A stretch of DNA of 31,032 nt from a virus. This document shows positions 6,199 through 28,891 of the stretch, piece by piece. The stretch's first letter is position 1, and every line of letters begins with the position of its first letter. Position numbers and translations under genes: made by a program. The notes beneath the pieces are model-generated. The model worked only from the letters and a program-made list of their open reading frames with translations. It was not told the DNA's origin and ran no database searches. The stretch is taken from IMG/VR virus record IMGVR_UViG_3300018019_000252, positions 1 to 31,032 of that record; one strand, written 5' to 3'.

Positions 6199-6734
6199 CT
6201 AGCTGCTCGGCCGTTTCTTTTGTTCCCATTCGATCAGCCGACTTAGGGCGCCGTTGAAGGCTTGCAGGTCAGATCGGCTGCGGCTGAAAATCTCCGTTAA
6301 TGGCTGGTGTCCGTAATAAGCGGCGTATGCCACCTCGTCCCACAGTCCTTGCAGTGCCCCCGCCCTTACACCTCCGTCTTTGCGCTCCCGAAAAAACTGT
6401 CGGTTTCCTCCTGGTTGGGCAGGCAGACCTTGCCGAAGCCCTTGATGACCAGGTCCCGCACCTTGTTGGAAAAGCCGTCGAAGATCGTCTCGGCCTCGTT
6501 GTCGGTCCAGGTGACCACCTTGCCGTCAACCGCGTACAGTCCGCGCTTGGCCCCCGCCTCGCCAAAGTGCTTGGCCTCCATGGCCGCCTTGATCTCGGAC
6601 ACGGTCAGCTGCCGGATCGTGACTGTCTTGGGGTCGCCGGCCAGGCGGACTGACTCGGGAAGGGTGAAGGTGGTTCTGGGGAGCCGCGCTATGGCGTCGA
6701 GTAGGCCCCCGGCCAGGTTGAGTGAATCGGACAT
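6199..6734 (-). CDS. Tail assembly chaperone fusion made by -1 frameshift (gpE-E'-like)
   Basis: Ribosomes that slip back one base at 6390-6396 leave the frame of the 122-residue protein after Phe115 and add 63 residues, ending at the TAG at 6199-6201. The total is 178 residues. The added part is protein-like and matches the E'/T type: it contains LWDEVAYAAYYGHQP, then a helical DLQAFNGALSRLIEWE and a basic end. That open frame has no start codon or ribosome site of its own and fills the otherwise unexplained 165-base gap before the tape measure gene. In known phages the fusion binds the tape measure through this second domain. Confidence 0.8.
6366..6734 (-). CDS. Tail assembly chaperone, zero-frame product (gpE-like)
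   Basis: This 122-residue protein lies between tail tube and tape measure, where tail assembly chaperones sit. It carries a compact alpha/beta domain (about 15-100) with the segment RQLTVSEIKAAMEAKHFGE typical of tape-measure chaperones. It ends seven residues after Phe114-Phe115, which are encoded by the slippery run T_TTT_TTC. A strong AAGGAGG ribosome site precedes the ATG. The shorter product is expected to be made in excess over the fusion, as in P2 gpE/E' and lambda gpG/gpGT. Confidence 0.72.
   Translation of the reverse strand: MSDSLNLAGGLLDAIARLPRTTFTLPESVRLAGDPKTVTIRQLTVSEIKAAMEAKHFGEAGAKRGLYAVDGKVVTWTDNEAETIFDGFSNKVRDLVIKGFGKVCLPNQEETDSFFGSAKTEV
6390..6412 (-). promoter_or_regulatory. 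Programmed -1 ribosomal frameshift site (T_TTT_TTC) with upstream SD-like stimulator
   Basis: On the minus strand the codons are AGT TTT TTC, so the heptamer T TTT TTC (6396 to 6390) has the X XXY YYZ phase needed for tandem slippage. An AGGAGG sequence at 6412-6407 lies ten bases upstream, the spacing of the stimulatory Shine-Dalgarno element known from E. coli dnaX. P2 uses T TTT TTG at the same place between its E and E' frames. A GC-rich stretch follows and may form a stem, but I did not fold it. Confidence 0.82.
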
Positions 6735-11727: not shown

Positions 11728-12075
11728 CTACTCCTTGACCGGCTCCAGCTTGACGACCTGCTTGATAACCGCCCACACCTTGGGAAGGTAGTGGTTGCGG
11801 CTCAACACCTGGCCGCGCGCGAACGTGGTGCGGACCACGCCGAGCATGACCTTCGTGTCCTCGACCACGCGCCAGAGGACCGGCTGGTCGGACTGAGGCG
11901 CACCGACCGGCTTGGCCGGCTTGGCCGGCGGAACCGGGGGCTTCTCTTCGGGCTTACCACCCGCGGCGAACTCGTCCGGGGTCAAGGCGGCATCGGCCAC
12001 CGACGCGGGCTCGGGTTCTTTGTTCTCGGTACCCTTGTCGGGCGTGCCCTTGGGGGCCTTGGGAATCAGGGCCAT
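11728..12075 (-). CDS. Small head-region protein with Pro-rich N-terminus
   Basis: A 115-residue protein. Residues 1-65 are a Lys/Pro/Glu-rich, probably unfolded segment with repeated PAKPAKP-type steps. The C-terminal 50 residues form a strand-rich unit (VLWRVVEDTKVMLGVVRTTF, then HYLPKVWAVIKQVVK). A good AAAGGAG ribosome site precedes the ATG. It is the first gene after the long structured gene-free stretch, so that stretch may act as its leader. I do not recognise the family. Confidence 0.45.
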   Translation of the reverse strand: MALIPKAPKGTPDKGTENKEPEPASVADAALTPDEFAAGGKPEEKPPVPPAKPAKPVGAPQSDQPVLWRVVEDTKVMLGVVRTTFARGQVLSRNHYLPKVWAVIKQVVKLEPVKE

Positions 12076-12120
12076 GGAAGCTCCTTTGCGCGAATGGTTG
12101 GTCGGGCGGGGAAAGAGGTG

Positions 12121-12565
12121 GGGCGCTGGACTCCAGCGTGTTGTGCTACGTCGCTAACCCGCGACGGGGGTTGCACAGCGGCGAGAGTCCGGCGCCATGG
12201 CATAAGCCACAGACGACTGAAATTCGGTCGGTCCACCAGTGGGGGGCAAAGCCCCCCGATGACCGCAAAACCCAACCGAAGTTGGGTGCGCCGTCAAAAG
12301 CGGGCGTGGACGGCCAGTGACCAAACCGGCCGAACTCGTAACCGCTGCCATCAGGCGCAACTGCGGTGCTAAACCGGCATGTTCGTATGGGCGAACGCAC
12401 AAGGCGTCACCACCATGCCGGCGGACCAGAGGGCAGCGACACGACCGCGTGCCCCTACGGCTGCCACAGGCGAGCCCAGGTCCAAACATCGGCCCGAAGG
12501 CCGAACCTAAAGCAAGGCAGCCCGTCGGCGCTTTTGCGCCGGTCGTGCCGGGTCTGCCTTGCACA
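12121..12565 (-). ncRNA. Candidate large structured RNA between capsid gene and next head gene
   Basis: The 526 bases at 12076-12601 hold no convincing gene but are tiled with strong inverted repeats. These include a 13-bp arm pair (12512-12524 with 12549-12562) enclosing a CGGCGC-TTTT-GCGCCG hairpin (12526-12541), TCGGCC/GGCCGA (12489-12504), GGCAGC/GCTGCC (12432-12465), CCGGCATG/CATGCCGG (12374-12421), ACCCAAC/GTTGGGT (12270-12287), GGGGGGC/GCCCCCC (12241-12257), nested TGTGC and GTCGC stems (12142-12177) and CGCTGG/CCAGCG (12124-12138). On the minus strand two loops read cUUCGg, the most stable RNA tetraloop, while on the plus strand they read CGAA. The RNA is therefore most likely made with the operon. 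The ends are approximate, and no known RNA class was recognised. Confidence 0.55.
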
Positions 12566-12601
12566 GTAGCCACAATTGCCTCTTCGTGACTGCGGCCGGG
12601 C

Positions 12602-14020
12602 CTACAGGCTTTCGACCACGCAGACGCGCTTGTACCGAGCGGCGTCGCCAGTGGCGGCGTCGGTGCGGCACGGCCAGTCCATGAGGCACTTCCAGATGGA
12701 CGTGACCATTTCGTTCAGCACGTCGATCGGCGCGCGAATGAACACCTGCACGCGGTCGGCGTTGACCTCGACCCCGTTGGCCGTCAGGCGGGCCGGCTGG
12801 AACTCGCCCACTTCGCCGTTCACGCCGGCAGCCGTGATCAGGCCCGACATGTCGTTGAAGTACTCGTACACCGCCTCGGCGCCGATGCAGATCGGACGCT
12901 GAATCTCGTCGCCGCTGGCGTTATACATCTCACCGCCGAAGCGCTCGCCTTTGCGACCGCTAACGTAGGTGTTCTGCAGGCCACCGACCACGTTCGACGC
13001 GCGCGGCGTCTCGGTGTCGACGAACACCAGACCACCCAGGATCGTCCCGAGCGCAAACTCGGTGAACCAGTAGTGGTCGGGCAAGCTGGTCAGCAGGCGC
13101 TGCGCCTCGTCCGTGGCGAACAGCTCGGACTTCGACGTGCTGTTGAAGTGCCAGTGGTAGTAACCGTCGGGCAGCTTGGGCACGTTCTGATCTTCGAGGC
13201 GCGCCACCGCGGCCCGATAGAGATCGTACGTGAAGCCCATGTTGGCCCCGGTCACGCTGTCGATGCTGTTCCCGCCACTGGCGCGAACCATGTACGAGGC
13301 GTCCATCGACCAGATCGCATCGCGGGCCGAGAGCGTTACCGTCTCGAGCACCGTGAGGGTTCCCGGGCCGGTCTGGTCGCCAGCCGTGGCCGGCGTGTAG
13401 CCTACGACCGTCGCGGTGTAGTTGGTCCCGCCGTGGCTGAAGGTGATGGAGAGGGGGTTGTTGCTCGACACGGCCGCGAACTGCACGGGCTCGCCCGCGG
13501 GCAGGTCGGGACGACGCGCGGTCGTGAACCCGTTGAGGCGCTGCACCGGGATCGTGCTGGCACCCGAGACGGCGGCACTGGCCACGGTCCAGCCGCTCAT
13601 GCCTGCGTTATACAGGTTGTCGCGCACCTTGCGGTTCAGCGACTGGGCGGCGTGCAGGCCGAGCTTGTGCAGGTTCTCGGTTAGCAGGTTGACGATGGCG
13701 AGCGCGCTGGTGGGCATGTGGGTGTCGGGCGCGCGACCCACATACTCGTGCAGCTGCATGTCCCACTGCTCCTTCGTGTAGTCTTGCGCGTCGGGCGTGT
13801 CGCCTGGGACGATCGGCTCGGTCACAGGCTGCATGAGCCCGGTGCCCGTGAAGATGAAGCGGTCGCCGGACTGGCCGGGCTGGCTAATCGACGGCGCCTC
13901 ACCGCGGAACAGGTTGCGCGGGTACAGGGGGTCGAGGAACTGGCGGACCAGGCTGTTATCCTGGACCAGCTCGCGGGTCGTCGGATCCTGGAGAATGGCG
14001 GAGAAATTGAGATCGGGCAT
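12602..14020 (-). CDS. Major capsid protein, probably N4-gp56-like / HK97 fold
   Basis: A 472-residue protein directly after the scaffold-like gene. The N-terminal part has DRFIFTGTGLMQPVTEPIVPG, then YTKEQWDMQLHEYVGRAPDT and a long helix (SALAIVNLLTENLHKLGLHA). This is the layout of N4-gp56-type capsid proteins: extended arm, then the spine-helix region. The middle (about 150-240) is a Thr/Ser/Gly-rich inserted domain. The C-terminal half returns to the core, with GGLVFVDTETPR and VQVFIRAPIDVLNEM strands closing the A-domain. GAGGAAACC precedes the ATG. Identification as capsid is firm from context; the subfamily is less so. Confidence 0.72.
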   Translation of the reverse strand: MPDLNFSAILQDPTTRELVQDNSLVRQFLDPLYPRNLFRGEAPSISQPGQSGDRFIFTGTGLMQPVTEPIVPGDTPDAQDYTKEQWDMQLHEYVGRAPDTHMPTSALAIVNLLTENLHKLGLHAAQSLNRKVRDNLYNAGMSGWTVASAAVSGASTIPVQRLNGFTTARRPDLPAGEPVQFAAVSSNNPLSITFSHGGTNYTATVVGYTPATAGDQTGPGTLTVLETVTLSARDAIWSMDASYMVRASGGNSIDSVTGANMGFTYDLYRAAVARLEDQNVPKLPDGYYHWHFNSTSKSELFATDEAQRLLTSLPDHYWFTEFALGTILGGLVFVDTETPRASNVVGGLQNTYVSGRKGERFGGEMYNASGDEIQRPICIGAEAVYEYFNDMSGLITAAGVNGEVGEFQPARLTANGVEVNADRVQVFIRAPIDVLNEMVTSIWKCLMDWPCRTDAATGDAARYKRVCVVESL

Positions 14021-18954: not shown

Positions 18955-19425
18955 TCAGCTCCTTGCCAGCCTGGCTGGGAACAGCCCCAGCACACGGCGG
19001 CTCCAATCGTTGGCCCTGCACCTCTCCGAACCGTCGTAAACGGCAACCGCGGCCGCGAGTGCTTTGCACAGCAGCAGGCACCGGGCCAGGTGCCGGGCCG
19101 TTGCTTCGAGGTTCACCCTGGCGTCCAGCAGGTCGGTCAGGGTCAGGCGGGGCGCTGCCGACTTGCCGGGTATGATCTGGCCCAGGCCGACCGCCCCGCT
19201 GCGCCGGTTGATGGCGCCCGGTCGGCAGGTGGACTCGGAGCCCACCAGGTCGCCCAGCACCGCCGGCCGCAGCAGGAACCTATGTGCCATCTCGCGGATC
19301 AGCGGCGCCCACTCGGCGCCCTTACTGCCGCAGCGCCGGGCCAGCGCCTGGTCGAGAGCATCGGCGCGCGCCAGGCCCGACCAGCACGACGCCGCGCCCA
19401 CGAGCAGGAGAAAGCGCCAGCTCAC
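18955..19425 (-). CDS. Exported lytic transglycosylase-like (SLT fold) protein
   Basis: Residues 1-21 are a signal peptide: basic start, hydrophobic FLLLVGAASCW, and an ARA-DA cleavage site. The mature part (156 residues in total) has the SLT pattern: a helix, VGSESTCRPGA with the probable catalytic Glu64, then RRSGAVGLGQI, which corresponds to the G-A-x-G-L-x-Q-I motif of soluble lytic transglycosylases. Such enzymes cleave the glycan strands of peptidoglycan. An exported form encoded beside the head genes could help lysis or local wall opening at infection; no holin is seen next to it. The GTG start overlaps the upstream stop (GTGA) with GGAG before it. Confidence 0.62.
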   Translation of the reverse strand: MSWRFLLLVGAASCWSGLARADALDQALARRCGSKGAEWAPLIREMAHRFLLRPAVLGDLVGSESTCRPGAINRRSGAVGLGQIIPGKSAAPRLTLTDLLDARVNLEATARHLARCLLLCKALAAAVAVYDGSERCRANDWSRRVLGLFPARLARS

Positions 19426-23960: not shown

Positions 23961-24446
23961 CTATCGGGTTGCGGTTACCAGGTGAGTCCAACTTACCGTG
24001 CCCACCCGGGAAACCTGCTGCGCGCTGATGCCGAAAAGCCTGGCCAGCCTAGCCTTCGGCTCGCCATTTGCCTTGCGCCTGATGATCTCCTTGGCCTGCT
24101 CTTCCGTGATCTTCGCATTGCCGTGGTCTGCCCCACGCCTGCGAACATACCTGTCCATGCGCTGCCGCTGGCCCGGCGTTGCCAGGTGTAGCCAGTTGGC
24201 GCGGCCGACTGCCGCAATGGCCGTCTTGCTAACGCCAAACTCCCGGGCTAGCTCGCGGGTCGTTGCGCCCCCTGCTTTTTTTCGTATGACGTCCATGGCT
24301 TGCGCGTTGGTTAGTTTGGCCGTTGCATGCCGTTCGCCACGAGACTGCCGGCCCTTGCTGTCATGTGCAGGCACTGGGCCGTTCTTGTCGACCTTCGACC
24401 AGAAGCGGTTAGCGATGTGGCTTGCCCGTCTACCGTGTTTTTTCAT
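23961..24446 (-). CDS. HNH homing-type protein lacking its HNH core; duplicated HTH
   Basis: The 161-residue product starts with ANRFWSKVDKNGPV (12-25), the opening typical of phage HNH homing endonucleases, where a Cys-Trp-x-Trp turn and the nuclease core normally follow. Here it runs straight into a Lys/Arg/Ser linker. Two helix-turn-helix units follow: 37-88 (AKLTNAQAMDVIRKKAGG, LAREFGVSKTAI) and 105-156 (AKITEEQAKEIIRRKANG, LARLFGISAQQV). They align along their length, so they look like a duplication of the DNA-binding tail. The protein probably binds DNA but should not cut it. It overlaps the next gene by ATGA. Confidence 0.6.
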   Translation of the reverse strand: MKKHGRRASHIANRFWSKVDKNGPVPAHDSKGRQSRGERHATAKLTNAQAMDVIRKKAGGATTRELAREFGVSKTAIAAVGRANWLHLATPGQRQRMDRYVRRRGADHGNAKITEEQAKEIIRRKANGEPKARLARLFGISAQQVSRVGTVSWTHLVTATR

Positions 24447-25582
24447 TCCGCTGGCAACCCTAACGCCTGTCTAACCGTTTGGCCAGGGTATCCGGCCCTG
24501 AAGTCCTTGAGCACCCCCAGCTCGTGGTTCGTGGGGTAGCCGCCCAGCACTGCGGCCGCGACCTGGTCGACGTACTCGAGCTTCTCTCGAGCGCCGGTGG
24601 GCTCGGCGTACTTTTGCCGCCAATTGCTCTCCGGGTCGAGCCAGCACGCGAAGGCCTCGGCCCAGGCCTCGTCAGGGTGGCGCTGCGGGTACCCGGGCTC
24701 GACGTCGCTCATGTAGCGCACGAACGCCGGGTCGAGCGGGTCCTTCAGCTGGGGCAGGGTGTCCGGGTACGGCAGGGTAAAGTCGCCAAAGGTGGCCGTC
24801 CAGTCCGGCCGCTTCCACAGCTCGAAGGCATAGTTAACCGAGTGCCCCACCTCGTGCCGTATCGAGCGCTCGACGTTCTCCCACGTGATCGGGTAGCGCG
24901 GAAAGGCCGCGTCCCGCAGGTCGTTGGTAGCCAGGAACCACGGAAGGTTGACGGTGGTCGCGCGATCGGCAGCCCAGAAGCCCGAGGGGCCCAGCATGTA
25001 GGTCGGCTCGTAGTGCGCGATCCCGGCCGTGACCAGCTGGTCGTGGATGCGGTCTAGGATCTCCTTCAGCCGGCCGGTGGGCACCAGGTTCAGGCTCTCG
25101 ACCGGGCGGTCCAGCAGGCCGCGGATCGGGCTCTCCTCGAACAGGGGATCCGGCTCACCGTATTGCCTGGCGATCCTGGCCCAGGTGGCCCCGCCGCGCA
25201 TGATCATAGCCTTGTCGTCAATGAACAGGTCGCAGGACGGCTTGCCGCCCAGGCCGTCGTCGATAGCGTCGAACGTGCCGGGCAGCTCGCGGTCCACGAA
25301 GTCCACCATCTGGTGGTAGCGCGCCCACTGCAGGTGCCGCGAGTCGCGCCAGGTCTTGCGGTCGAGCGGCACGATGCCAGCGCGCACCAGGGGGTTCAGC
25401 GCCGGGTCGTACAGGTGCGCACGGCTGGCCCGTCCGGACCACAGGAGCAGCACATGCCCGGCCCGCTTGAGCGAGAGCAGGGCCTCGCGGGCCCCGGGCA
25501 GGAACTCGAGCGGCGTAACGACGTCGTCATACGAGCGGTCCTGGCTCACCACCGTGCCGTCGAAGTCGACTGCAATGATCAC
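24443..25582 (-). CDS. HAD-family phosphatase fused to zincin metalloprotease
   Basis: A 379-residue protein with two enzyme domains. Residues 1-135 are HAD-like: motif 1 VDFDGT with Asp6 and Asp8, motif 2 LLLWSGRAS with Ser49, and the acidic motif DLFIDDKA with Asp122-Asp123. Residues about 165-340 form a zincin: SIRHEVGHSVNYAF with HExxH at 243-247, and HPDEAWAEAFACWL (302-315) with Glu305 or Glu309 as third ligand, the layout of putative Peptidase_Mx-type proteins. The start is GTG, overlapping the microgene stop (GTGA), with no strong ribosome site. I know no standard protein with this pairing. Both active sites look complete. Confidence 0.68.
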   Translation of the reverse strand: MIIAVDFDGTVVSQDRSYDDVVTPLEFLPGAREALLSLKRAGHVLLLWSGRASRAHLYDPALNPLVRAGIVPLDRKTWRDSRHLQWARYHQMVDFVDRELPGTFDAIDDGLGGKPSCDLFIDDKAMIMRGGATWARIARQYGEPDPLFEESPIRGLLDRPVESLNLVPTGRLKEILDRIHDQLVTAGIAHYEPTYMLGPSGFWAADRATTVNLPWFLATNDLRDAAFPRYPITWENVERSIRHEVGHSVNYAFELWKRPDWTATFGDFTLPYPDTLPQLKDPLDPAFVRYMSDVEPGYPQRHPDEAWAEAFACWLDPESNWRQKYAEPTGAREKLEYVDQVAAAVLGGYPTNHELGVLKDFRAGYPGQTVRQALGLPAE

Positions 25583-27388: not shown

Positions 27389-28891
27389 CTACCAATTCAG
27401 GAGGTTGAGTGTCACGGCCCCAATTGCGGGCGGGGGCTTGTCGACCTGGCCCAGGCGCTCGCCTTCTTTGGCGAGCCAGCTCGCCATCGCCCGGTCGCCG
27501 GTGTGCGCGGGCTTGGGCCGGTAGCCCAGCAGCTCGCTCACCCAGGCCTCGATCTCGGGCTCCATGCTGCCGCCCATGTTGGGGATGATCCACTTGCAGG
27601 CGGCGAACTCGGCGGCCATGGCCTCGAACCCGAACGTGGGGTCGGCTTTGTTGCGGCCGGTGGTGTAGGGCACGATCGGGATCGCGGTGCCCGCGTGTAG
27701 CAGCTGCACGAGGTAGTCCTGCGCGGCGTTGTTCTCGACCACGAAGATGCACTGAAAGCGGTACGAGTACTCGATGACCTTGGCCATGATCTCGGCCGCC
27801 AGCCACCGCCCGCTCTCGACCCACAGCACCTCGCGGTCGCCGTTTGGGTGCACCAGCAGCACGAAGAACACGGTCAGGTCGTTGTCCTGGCCGCGCCCCA
27901 CACCCAGGTCGACGCCGCAGTAGACCTTGCACCCCCAAGGAACGGCCTTGAGCGCATAGACCGGCCGCGAGCCCTGGCCGTTCTGGCCTAGGCCGCGCCG
28001 CATGCAGTCGTCAATCCACGACCGCTTGAACCGACTGCTGCTGTCGTCCCGGCACTCGCAAAACAGCTGGCTCGCGATCTCGCTGGGCAGGATCAGCTCG
28101 GCCTTGCGATTCTCGATAGCCTGCAGGGGCCAGCGCTCGGGCCAGCGGGGCGTTTCGTCCGGGTTGAGTATTGGGTACTTGAACCCATGCCATCGGCTGC
28201 TCTTGACGACCGTATGCAGAAGGTCCTCGGGGTGAAAGGCGTTGCCCAGGAGCAGGATCCGCCCGGTCTCGGGGTTGATGCGGCCGGGTATGCTCTTCAG
28301 GTACCAGTCCAGCAGCTCGGCCCGGCGGTAGGGCGAGTGGGTGTTCTCCCGGTTCACCACGTCGTCCAGAATGGCCTCGTCGATACGAACGCCTTGGATA
28401 TTAACTCCCACGGCGCCCACGGCAACGCTCGGCCAGCTGGAGATATACGGGCGCTTGACCGTGATCTGCTCGGTGTTCCAGGGATTCCTAGCGTCGGGCC
28501 GCAGGTGGGGAAACACCTGGCCCAGCTCGCGCGAGCTTTCGATGTACTGCGAGATCGCGCTCATGATCTTGACGGCCGGGCCGCTGCTGGCGCACACGAT
28601 GGCGAACCGCAAGGACGGGTTCTGGCCCAGGCGGAACAGGGTGCGGGCCACGGTTAGGTTTTGCGTCTTGCCACTGTTGGCGAAGGCCCAGATCACAAGG
28701 CGGTCGTAGGTGTCGGCCAGGTAGTGCCACTCTTCCTGGAAGTAGGCCAGGTCGATCGGCTTGCCCGTGTATTCGTCGCGCATCACGTAGTGACAGAAGG
28801 CCGTGATGTTCTCGCGCGCTAGCTGGATGGCGGTGCTCTCATAGTGTTCGTAGCCCTCATCCAGCAACTGGCGTTGCGACAGGGCCGTCAC
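27389..28891 (-). CDS. Terminase large subunit
   Basis: The 500-residue packaging motor. The ATPase half has a Walker A-like loop FANSGKTQ (70-77), weaker than the classic GxxxxGKT, and a Walker B region IDEAILDDVV (170-179). The nuclease half shows an RNase H-type pattern: CGVDLGVGRGQDND with Asp328, VVENNAAQ with Glu386, and HTGDRAMASWL near the end with a possible third acid. The GTG start overlaps the small-subunit stop (GTGA). Packaging mode (cos or headful) cannot be read from here. Confidence 0.8.
   Translation of the reverse strand: MTALSQRQLLDEGYEHYESTAIQLARENITAFCHYVMRDEYTGKPIDLAYFQEEWHYLADTYDRLVIWAFANSGKTQNLTVARTLFRLGQNPSLRFAIVCASSGPAVKIMSAISQYIESSRELGQVFPHLRPDARNPWNTEQITVKRPYISSWPSVAVGAVGVNIQGVRIDEAILDDVVNRENTHSPYRRAELLDWYLKSIPGRINPETGRILLLGNAFHPEDLLHTVVKSSRWHGFKYPILNPDETPRWPERWPLQAIENRKAELILPSEIASQLFCECRDDSSSRFKRSWIDDCMRRGLGQNGQGSRPVYALKAVPWGCKVYCGVDLGVGRGQDNDLTVFFVLLVHPNGDREVLWVESGRWLAAEIMAKVIEYSYRFQCIFVVENNAAQDYLVQLLHAGTAIPIVPYTTGRNKADPTFGFEAMAAEFAACKWIIPNMGGSMEPEIEAWVSELLGYRPKPAHTGDRAMASWLAKEGERLGQVDKPPPAIGAVTLNLLNW

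Follow-up and report, generated by a model that had tools for sequence, protein, structure and literature searches.

A new family of large structured RNAs encoded directly behind the capsid gene of tailed phages

The virus record analysed here (the window, i.e. the whole stretch of 31,032 bases) contains, directly behind the major capsid gene, an RNA that almost certainly represents a real and new family of large structured non-coding RNAs. The RNA has a conserved fold, lies on the strand of the structural operon and does not encode a protein. Its place behind the capsid gene is fixed, and the two are inherited together. The best explanation, in which we place only even confidence, is that it is a stable RNA derived from the 3′ portion of the capsid transcript and working in trans as a folded molecule; transcription, abundance, processing and action in trans are all inferred.

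Genomic context

All genes that are relevant to the RNA are on the minus strand of the window. The features of the locus are as follows:

11728-12075, minus strand: downstream gene of unknown function, 115 aa, start preceded by AAAGGAG
12076-12601, minus strand: non-coding stretch of 526 bases, bounded by the capsid stop codon and the ATG of the next gene
12602-14020, minus strand: major capsid protein gene, 472 aa, directly upstream of the RNA
27389-28891: terminase large subunit (match to PHROG 38, E = 4e-53), i.e. a TerL-type terminase

The capsid protein matches the major head protein family PHROG 1357 (E = 4e-4) and is 29% identical to the capsid protein of Streptomyces phage Kromp (E = 6e-29). 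Homologues of the 115-aa gene sit directly behind the RNA in most related phages. In the window, this gene contains 9-base units in tandem (CTTGGCCGG, 11911-11928), and one unit is missing from three contigs that are otherwise nearly identical. The sole tRNA of the phage is a tRNA-Arg (CCG) at 19193-19277 on the minus strand, 6.6 kb from the RNA. A protein of 379 aa (24443-25582, minus strand) matches, with its residues 1-143, a PHROG annotated as phosphoheptose isomerase (E = 4e-13).

The initial annotation had described the stretch as tiled by stems, and both the stretch and its stems were confirmed. None of 100 dinucleotide shuffles was as stable as the native sequence on either strand, the z values being -4.1 for the operon strand and -6.7 for the opposite strand. 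Because both strands fold well, with the better z value on the wrong one, a single sequence cannot determine the strand of the RNA. A scan revealed no promoter of the RNA's own, and a simple terminator scan found no terminator-like site in the stretch.

Distribution among related phages

Near-identical copies of the stretch are present in close contigs. A capsid profile search revealed a more distant relative, L012, with a capsid protein that is 68% identical and a stretch of 539 nt in the same slot, in which about 63% of the bases are identical. Relatives were gathered by further capsid searches and by RNA-motif searches, for which the P4 strand GCCCAUACGAAC was used as the motif. The RNA element was found in 35 viral contigs; 12 different versions are full-length, with identities of 57-80%, and one (L077) is partial. 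In the full-length versions, the homologous stretches span 514-550 nt. Two covariance models (R1 and R2, of P2-P4 and P7) separate members from non-members clearly, with scores of at least 123 bits for complete members and at most 20 bits for non-members.

In all 35 contigs the RNA lies behind the capsid gene. It directly follows this gene in every capsid relative of at least 56% identity for which the downstream region is present. One exception in spacing is L106, in which a frame of 178 codons (L106:9166-9702) is located between the capsid gene and the intact RNA. The frame was classified as HNH-like from a motif identified by eye in the sequence only; Pfam gave no match. Frames similar to it follow the capsid gene in L151 and L153.

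The RNA was not found elsewhere. A scan of 84,980 species with the RNA pattern, in search of a host or prophage copy, yielded 17 matches, all of which were due to chance, and a capsid scan of the same genomes yielded none. No nucleotide match was found in phage or plasmid records, and pattern matches outside the capsid context proved to be unrelated sequence.

Covariation and the strand of the RNA

The 12 full-length versions were aligned (alignment A7), and a model of 21 helices was derived that contains 147 nested pairs and a candidate contact of five pairs, i.e. 152 pairs. Standard pairs occupy 92.5% of the cells, compared to 35-43% when the partners were slid. Compensatory double changes occur in 91 of the 152 pairs (24-29 in the slid controls), and the number of double-change cells is 225 (36-43 in the slid controls). 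None of 500 shuffles came near the observed pair counts. The shuffle control ignores the relatedness of the sequences; the slid control allows for it. The main helices of the model also came out on top in an unguided scan for covarying helices. Compensatory changes in homologous post-capsid stretches had been proposed as a check of the structured-RNA hypothesis, and they are present at a level far above both types of control.

The strand of the RNA follows from two observations. On the operon (minus) strand, G-U pairs fill 135 cells and A-C combinations only 28. In addition, 40 cUUCGg tetraloops are found on the operon strand across the versions and only one on the other strand. The two loops of the window (12271-12286 and 12489-12504), from which the initial annotation had argued for the operon strand, have this orientation exclusively, and the argument was right. 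An antisense RNA on the plus strand, for which the better single-sequence fold and A-rich loops on that strand could be cited, is ruled out by the G-U/A-C counts and the orientation of the tetraloops.

Conservation is not restricted to the helices. Of the unpaired columns, 71 are conserved in 11 or all 12 of the versions, e.g. UCGUG and GCC.AUACGAA. The unpaired positions consist of 37% U and 19% A; such a preponderance of U is unusual for a large folded RNA.

Absence of a coding signal

The stretch had been described as devoid of a credible gene. A frame of 139 codons (12154-12573, minus strand) is nevertheless open there; it fails every coding test. Open frames of about 130-180 codons exist in all 12 versions, and in several of them the frame begins 16-29 nt past the capsid stop, a point in favour of a translated gene. 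Long open frames are also present on the opposite strand of the RNA stretch.

The mismatches between the versions have no codon periodicity, and the open frame is therefore not regarded as a gene. The mismatch fractions at the three codon positions are flat (0.325/0.339/0.330). For comparison, the values are 0.285/0.241/0.429 in the capsid genes of these phages, which have a similar overall divergence. The check proposed at the outset, codon-style conservation in related phages, thus gave no sign of a protein gene. The frames of different versions are out of phase at 6541 aligned positions, about 40% of those that lie in the open frame of both partners, and the open frame of the window contains frame shifts. 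No match to Pfam or PHROG was found for the frame. Together with the pervasive compensatory changes, these results rule out the protein-gene reading, and we consider the chance that the frame is translated to be negligible. The RNA fulfils the sequence-level criterion for a generic large structured non-coding RNA, i.e. a conserved structure supported by compensation and no coding signal.

Architecture of the RNA

The conserved fold does not extend to the ends of the stretch; conservation is lacking in about 38 nt at the beginning and about 40 nt at the end. The elements of the RNA, in 5′ to 3′ order, are as follows:

12117-12563, minus strand: the conserved fold as a whole (P1 to P7; about 447 nt), defined by alignment A7 and the pair counts
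12511-12563, minus strand: P1, long 5′ stem (15 pairs) with the inner stem P1b and a conserved CACG in an internal loop (12544-12547)
12489-12504, minus strand: P2, hairpin with a cUUCGg tetraloop; 98.6% paired, 3 compensatory pairs
12423-12483, minus strand: P3, three-way junction (P3, P3a, P3b); 97-100% paired, 9 compensatory pairs
12373-12422, minus strand: P4, hairpin with the near-invariant motif strand given above; 96-98% paired, 6 + 4 compensatory pairs
12383-12444, minus strand: candidate pseudoknot or loop-loop contact between UCGUG (12440-12444) and UACGA (12383-12387)
12262-12367, minus strand: P5, domain closed by CCGCA/UGCGG, with the arm P5a (12288-12358) and the cUUCGg hairpin P5b (12271-12286); 27 compensatory pairs over five helices
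12241-12257, minus strand: P6, variable hairpin, in the window a GGGGGG-CUUUG-CCCCCC region; the homologues show 3 compensatory pairs
12117-12237, minus strand: P7, multi-branch 3′ domain with P7a (12214-12230), P7b (12197-12210) and P7c (12124-12194)
12109-12116, minus strand: pyrimidine/U tract directly past P7, UCUUUCCC in the window and U4-U6 in the other 11 versions

Compensatory changes affect 10 of the 15 outer pairs of P1 and 5 of its 6 inner pairs; the outer stem is only 74% paired in the alignment. P3 contains an invariant CGUA joint and the invariant UCGUG loop. Most homologues have a larger, branched stem in place of the P6 hairpin. P7, the domain covered by model R2, is 94-100% paired, apart from one small inner helix (81%), and has 24 compensatory pairs.

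The UCGUG loop of P3 can pair with UACGA of P4 or, equally well, with CACG(A/G) of P1 (12543-12547), and this holds in all 12 versions. Because the partners are nearly invariant, covariation cannot prove this contact, and it is only a suggestion. Two rival partners could indicate a switch or intermolecular contacts. The U tract past P7, which is followed by the ribosome-binding site of the next gene, is possibly the 3′ end of the RNA or a weak terminator.

Comparison with known RNA classes

A search of the window against Rfam 15 with Infernal gave no match at the gathering score, and a single meaningless snoRNA match up to E = 10. Nothing of note was found for the homologues, i.e. up to E = 10 for L012 and up to E = 1 for eight further loci. 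As anticipated in the initial annotation, no known class can be assigned, GOLLD, ROOL and the phi29 packaging RNA included. Its proposal of an unassigned structured RNA is supported by the covariation, the non-codon conservation and the lack of an Rfam match. No published report of the RNA was found in the open-access literature.

GOLLD and ROOL are large phage-encoded RNAs of unknown function that form cages (PMC12286853). GOLLD is elaborately folded, occurs in phages and prophages, and its expression rises during lysis; ROOL is an ornate RNA of about 660 nt in the solved member and is abundant in one strain (PMC12286853). The RNA described here shares with GOLLD the large and elaborate phage fold; however, GOLLD often exceeds 800 nt, compared to about 450 nt here, and is often located near tRNA islands, a criterion that is not met by an RNA behind a capsid gene with a lone tRNA at such a distance. 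GOLLD and ROOL pack by A-minor contacts, whereas the unpaired bases are U-rich and not A-rich in the present case. From ROOL, another large ornate phage RNA, it also differs in its gene context and the missing Rfam match.

The phi29 pRNA is likewise a phage RNA, which forms loop-loop contacts and is tied to head assembly; it has about 174 nt and acts together with a phi29-type ATPase. Membership would require an Rfam match and a phi29-type packaging ATPase, and neither is present in this TerL-type phage. The RNA also does not qualify as a self-splicing intron of group I or II, as the capsid gene and the next gene are intact, so that no gene is interrupted, and no Rfam intron model matched. The Mu-gpT-DE motif is likewise a structured element downstream of a phage capsid gene, that of Mu-like phages; it is much smaller, and the window RNA matches no Rfam family.

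A known class that escaped detection by Rfam (GOLLD, ROOL, a phi29-type packaging RNA or a self-splicing intron) is thus already disfavoured and seems very unlikely: the size, the phage origin and the elaborate fold resemble those of GOLLD and ROOL, and an HNH-like frame lies beside the RNA in L106, but the Rfam searches, the intact flanking genes, the type of terminase and the distant tRNA all point in the other direction.

Other putative post-capsid RNAs in the capsid clade

In capsid relatives with identities of 35-46%, covariance searches (unfiltered for eight genomes) did not reveal the RNA. Six further long stretches rich in structure were found behind capsid genes; they are unrelated in sequence to the window RNA, and two of them have compensatory changes of their own. 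The first is group C (L171-173; e.g. L172:4360-4708), with a length of about 345 nt, 18 compensatory pairs of 110 and 96% pairing, compared to 1-3 compensatory pairs and 35-43% pairing in slid controls. The second is group B (L155, L156 and L158; e.g. L155:4444-4800), with a length of about 360 nt, 15 compensatory pairs of 130 and 97.7% pairing (slid controls: 0-3 and 39-45%). The others are single sequences:

L149:4390-4910, structure-rich post-capsid stretch
L152:4426-4870, structure-rich post-capsid stretch
L163:1665-2030, structure-rich post-capsid stretch with seven CUUCGG words
L177:4351-4660, structure-rich post-capsid stretch

Unfiltered covariance models gave no evidence of sequence homology between the window RNA and groups B-G, with scores of no more than 14.8 bits. 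Kinship via the CUUCGG-rich stretch of L163, or via a CGGUCGUG word common to groups A, C and F, is too weak to be claimed.

In the capsid tree, for which the gap labels were assigned by eye from sequence, the phages with long structured stretches fall into one clade of 29 rows (SH-aLRT 99), and the remaining 19 rows all have a short gap after the capsid gene. The window RNA marks one fully supported branch. The simplest reading is one early gain of a post-capsid RNA, followed by fast divergence and a few losses; repeated gain is not excluded.

Unrelated RNAs in the same slot of related phages would also be explained if the RNA were a decoy or an inhibitor of host defence. The separate covarying folds of groups B and C and the restriction to one clade form the pattern that is expected under fast adaptive turnover. 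However, there is no host, no target and no likeness to any known defence RNA, and the position in a late operon is late for counter-defence, so that we regard this role as unlikely.

Possible functions

The capsid gene is usually the most highly expressed gene of a phage. Being encoded behind it on the strand of the structural operon, the RNA would be transcribed together with the capsid gene, as the 3′ portion of its message and at similar levels, and this placement would allow high-dose production without a promoter of its own. The stems, together with termination or processing near the 3′ U tract, would probably leave a stable and compact RNA. This RNA would most likely act in trans, either by itself or in complex with a protein of the phage or the host, during late infection or the assembly of particles. 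Such an action would resemble that presumed for GOLLD and ROOL, and the role of the RNA would go beyond that of a terminator. The conserved unpaired columns exceed the needs of a terminator or a mere mRNA stabiliser; because of these blocks, a specific folded surface and thus a trans-acting or assembled RNA is favoured. The intact RNA in L106, despite its separation from the capsid gene, was also counted in favour of this explanation. Against it, no tertiary contact is proven, the best candidate being almost invariant; the unpaired bases are rich in U, in contrast to those of RNAs packed by A-minor contacts; the expression is assumed in the absence of RNA-seq data and of a host; and a cis-acting element would likewise account for the constant association with the capsid gene.

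A cis element of the structural operon is therefore a serious rival, which we rate as possible, yet clearly below an action in trans. The fold would be the 3′ end of the capsid mRNA, where it would protect the message and partly stop transcription; the yield of capsid protein would then greatly exceed that of the proteins encoded downstream. Masking of the next gene's start by the fold is a further possibility. The linkage is complete in the 35 contigs, and several capsid cousins without the RNA, e.g. L148, L166, L178 and L179, have a terminator-like hairpin in the same place. Every version has a U tract past P7, and in L172 of group C the terminal stem is followed by U9. However, about 450 nt, 21 helices and conserved loops are far beyond such a task, the window stretch lacks a detectable terminator-like site, and the conserved fold stops before the Shine-Dalgarno sequence, leaving the last ~40 nt unconserved.

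Implications

To our knowledge, very few large structured phage RNAs have been described, and the function of none of the ornate ones is settled. The RNA reported here offers 12 diverse versions, a model with strong support from covariation, a definite strand and a fixed neighbour, the capsid gene. The gene neighbour directs the search for a function to head formation, so that the role of a large phage RNA becomes directly testable. We tentatively raise a wider view, for which the present support is weak: a clade of tailed phages may have gained, once in its ancestor, a large capsid-transcript RNA that turned over quickly in sequence and fold, kept its place, and serves as an RNA partner in the assembly of heads or in the virion itself. 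We know of no such role for large RNAs in TerL-type phages. The capsid clade itself provides natural controls, i.e. sister phages that carry another RNA or lack one.
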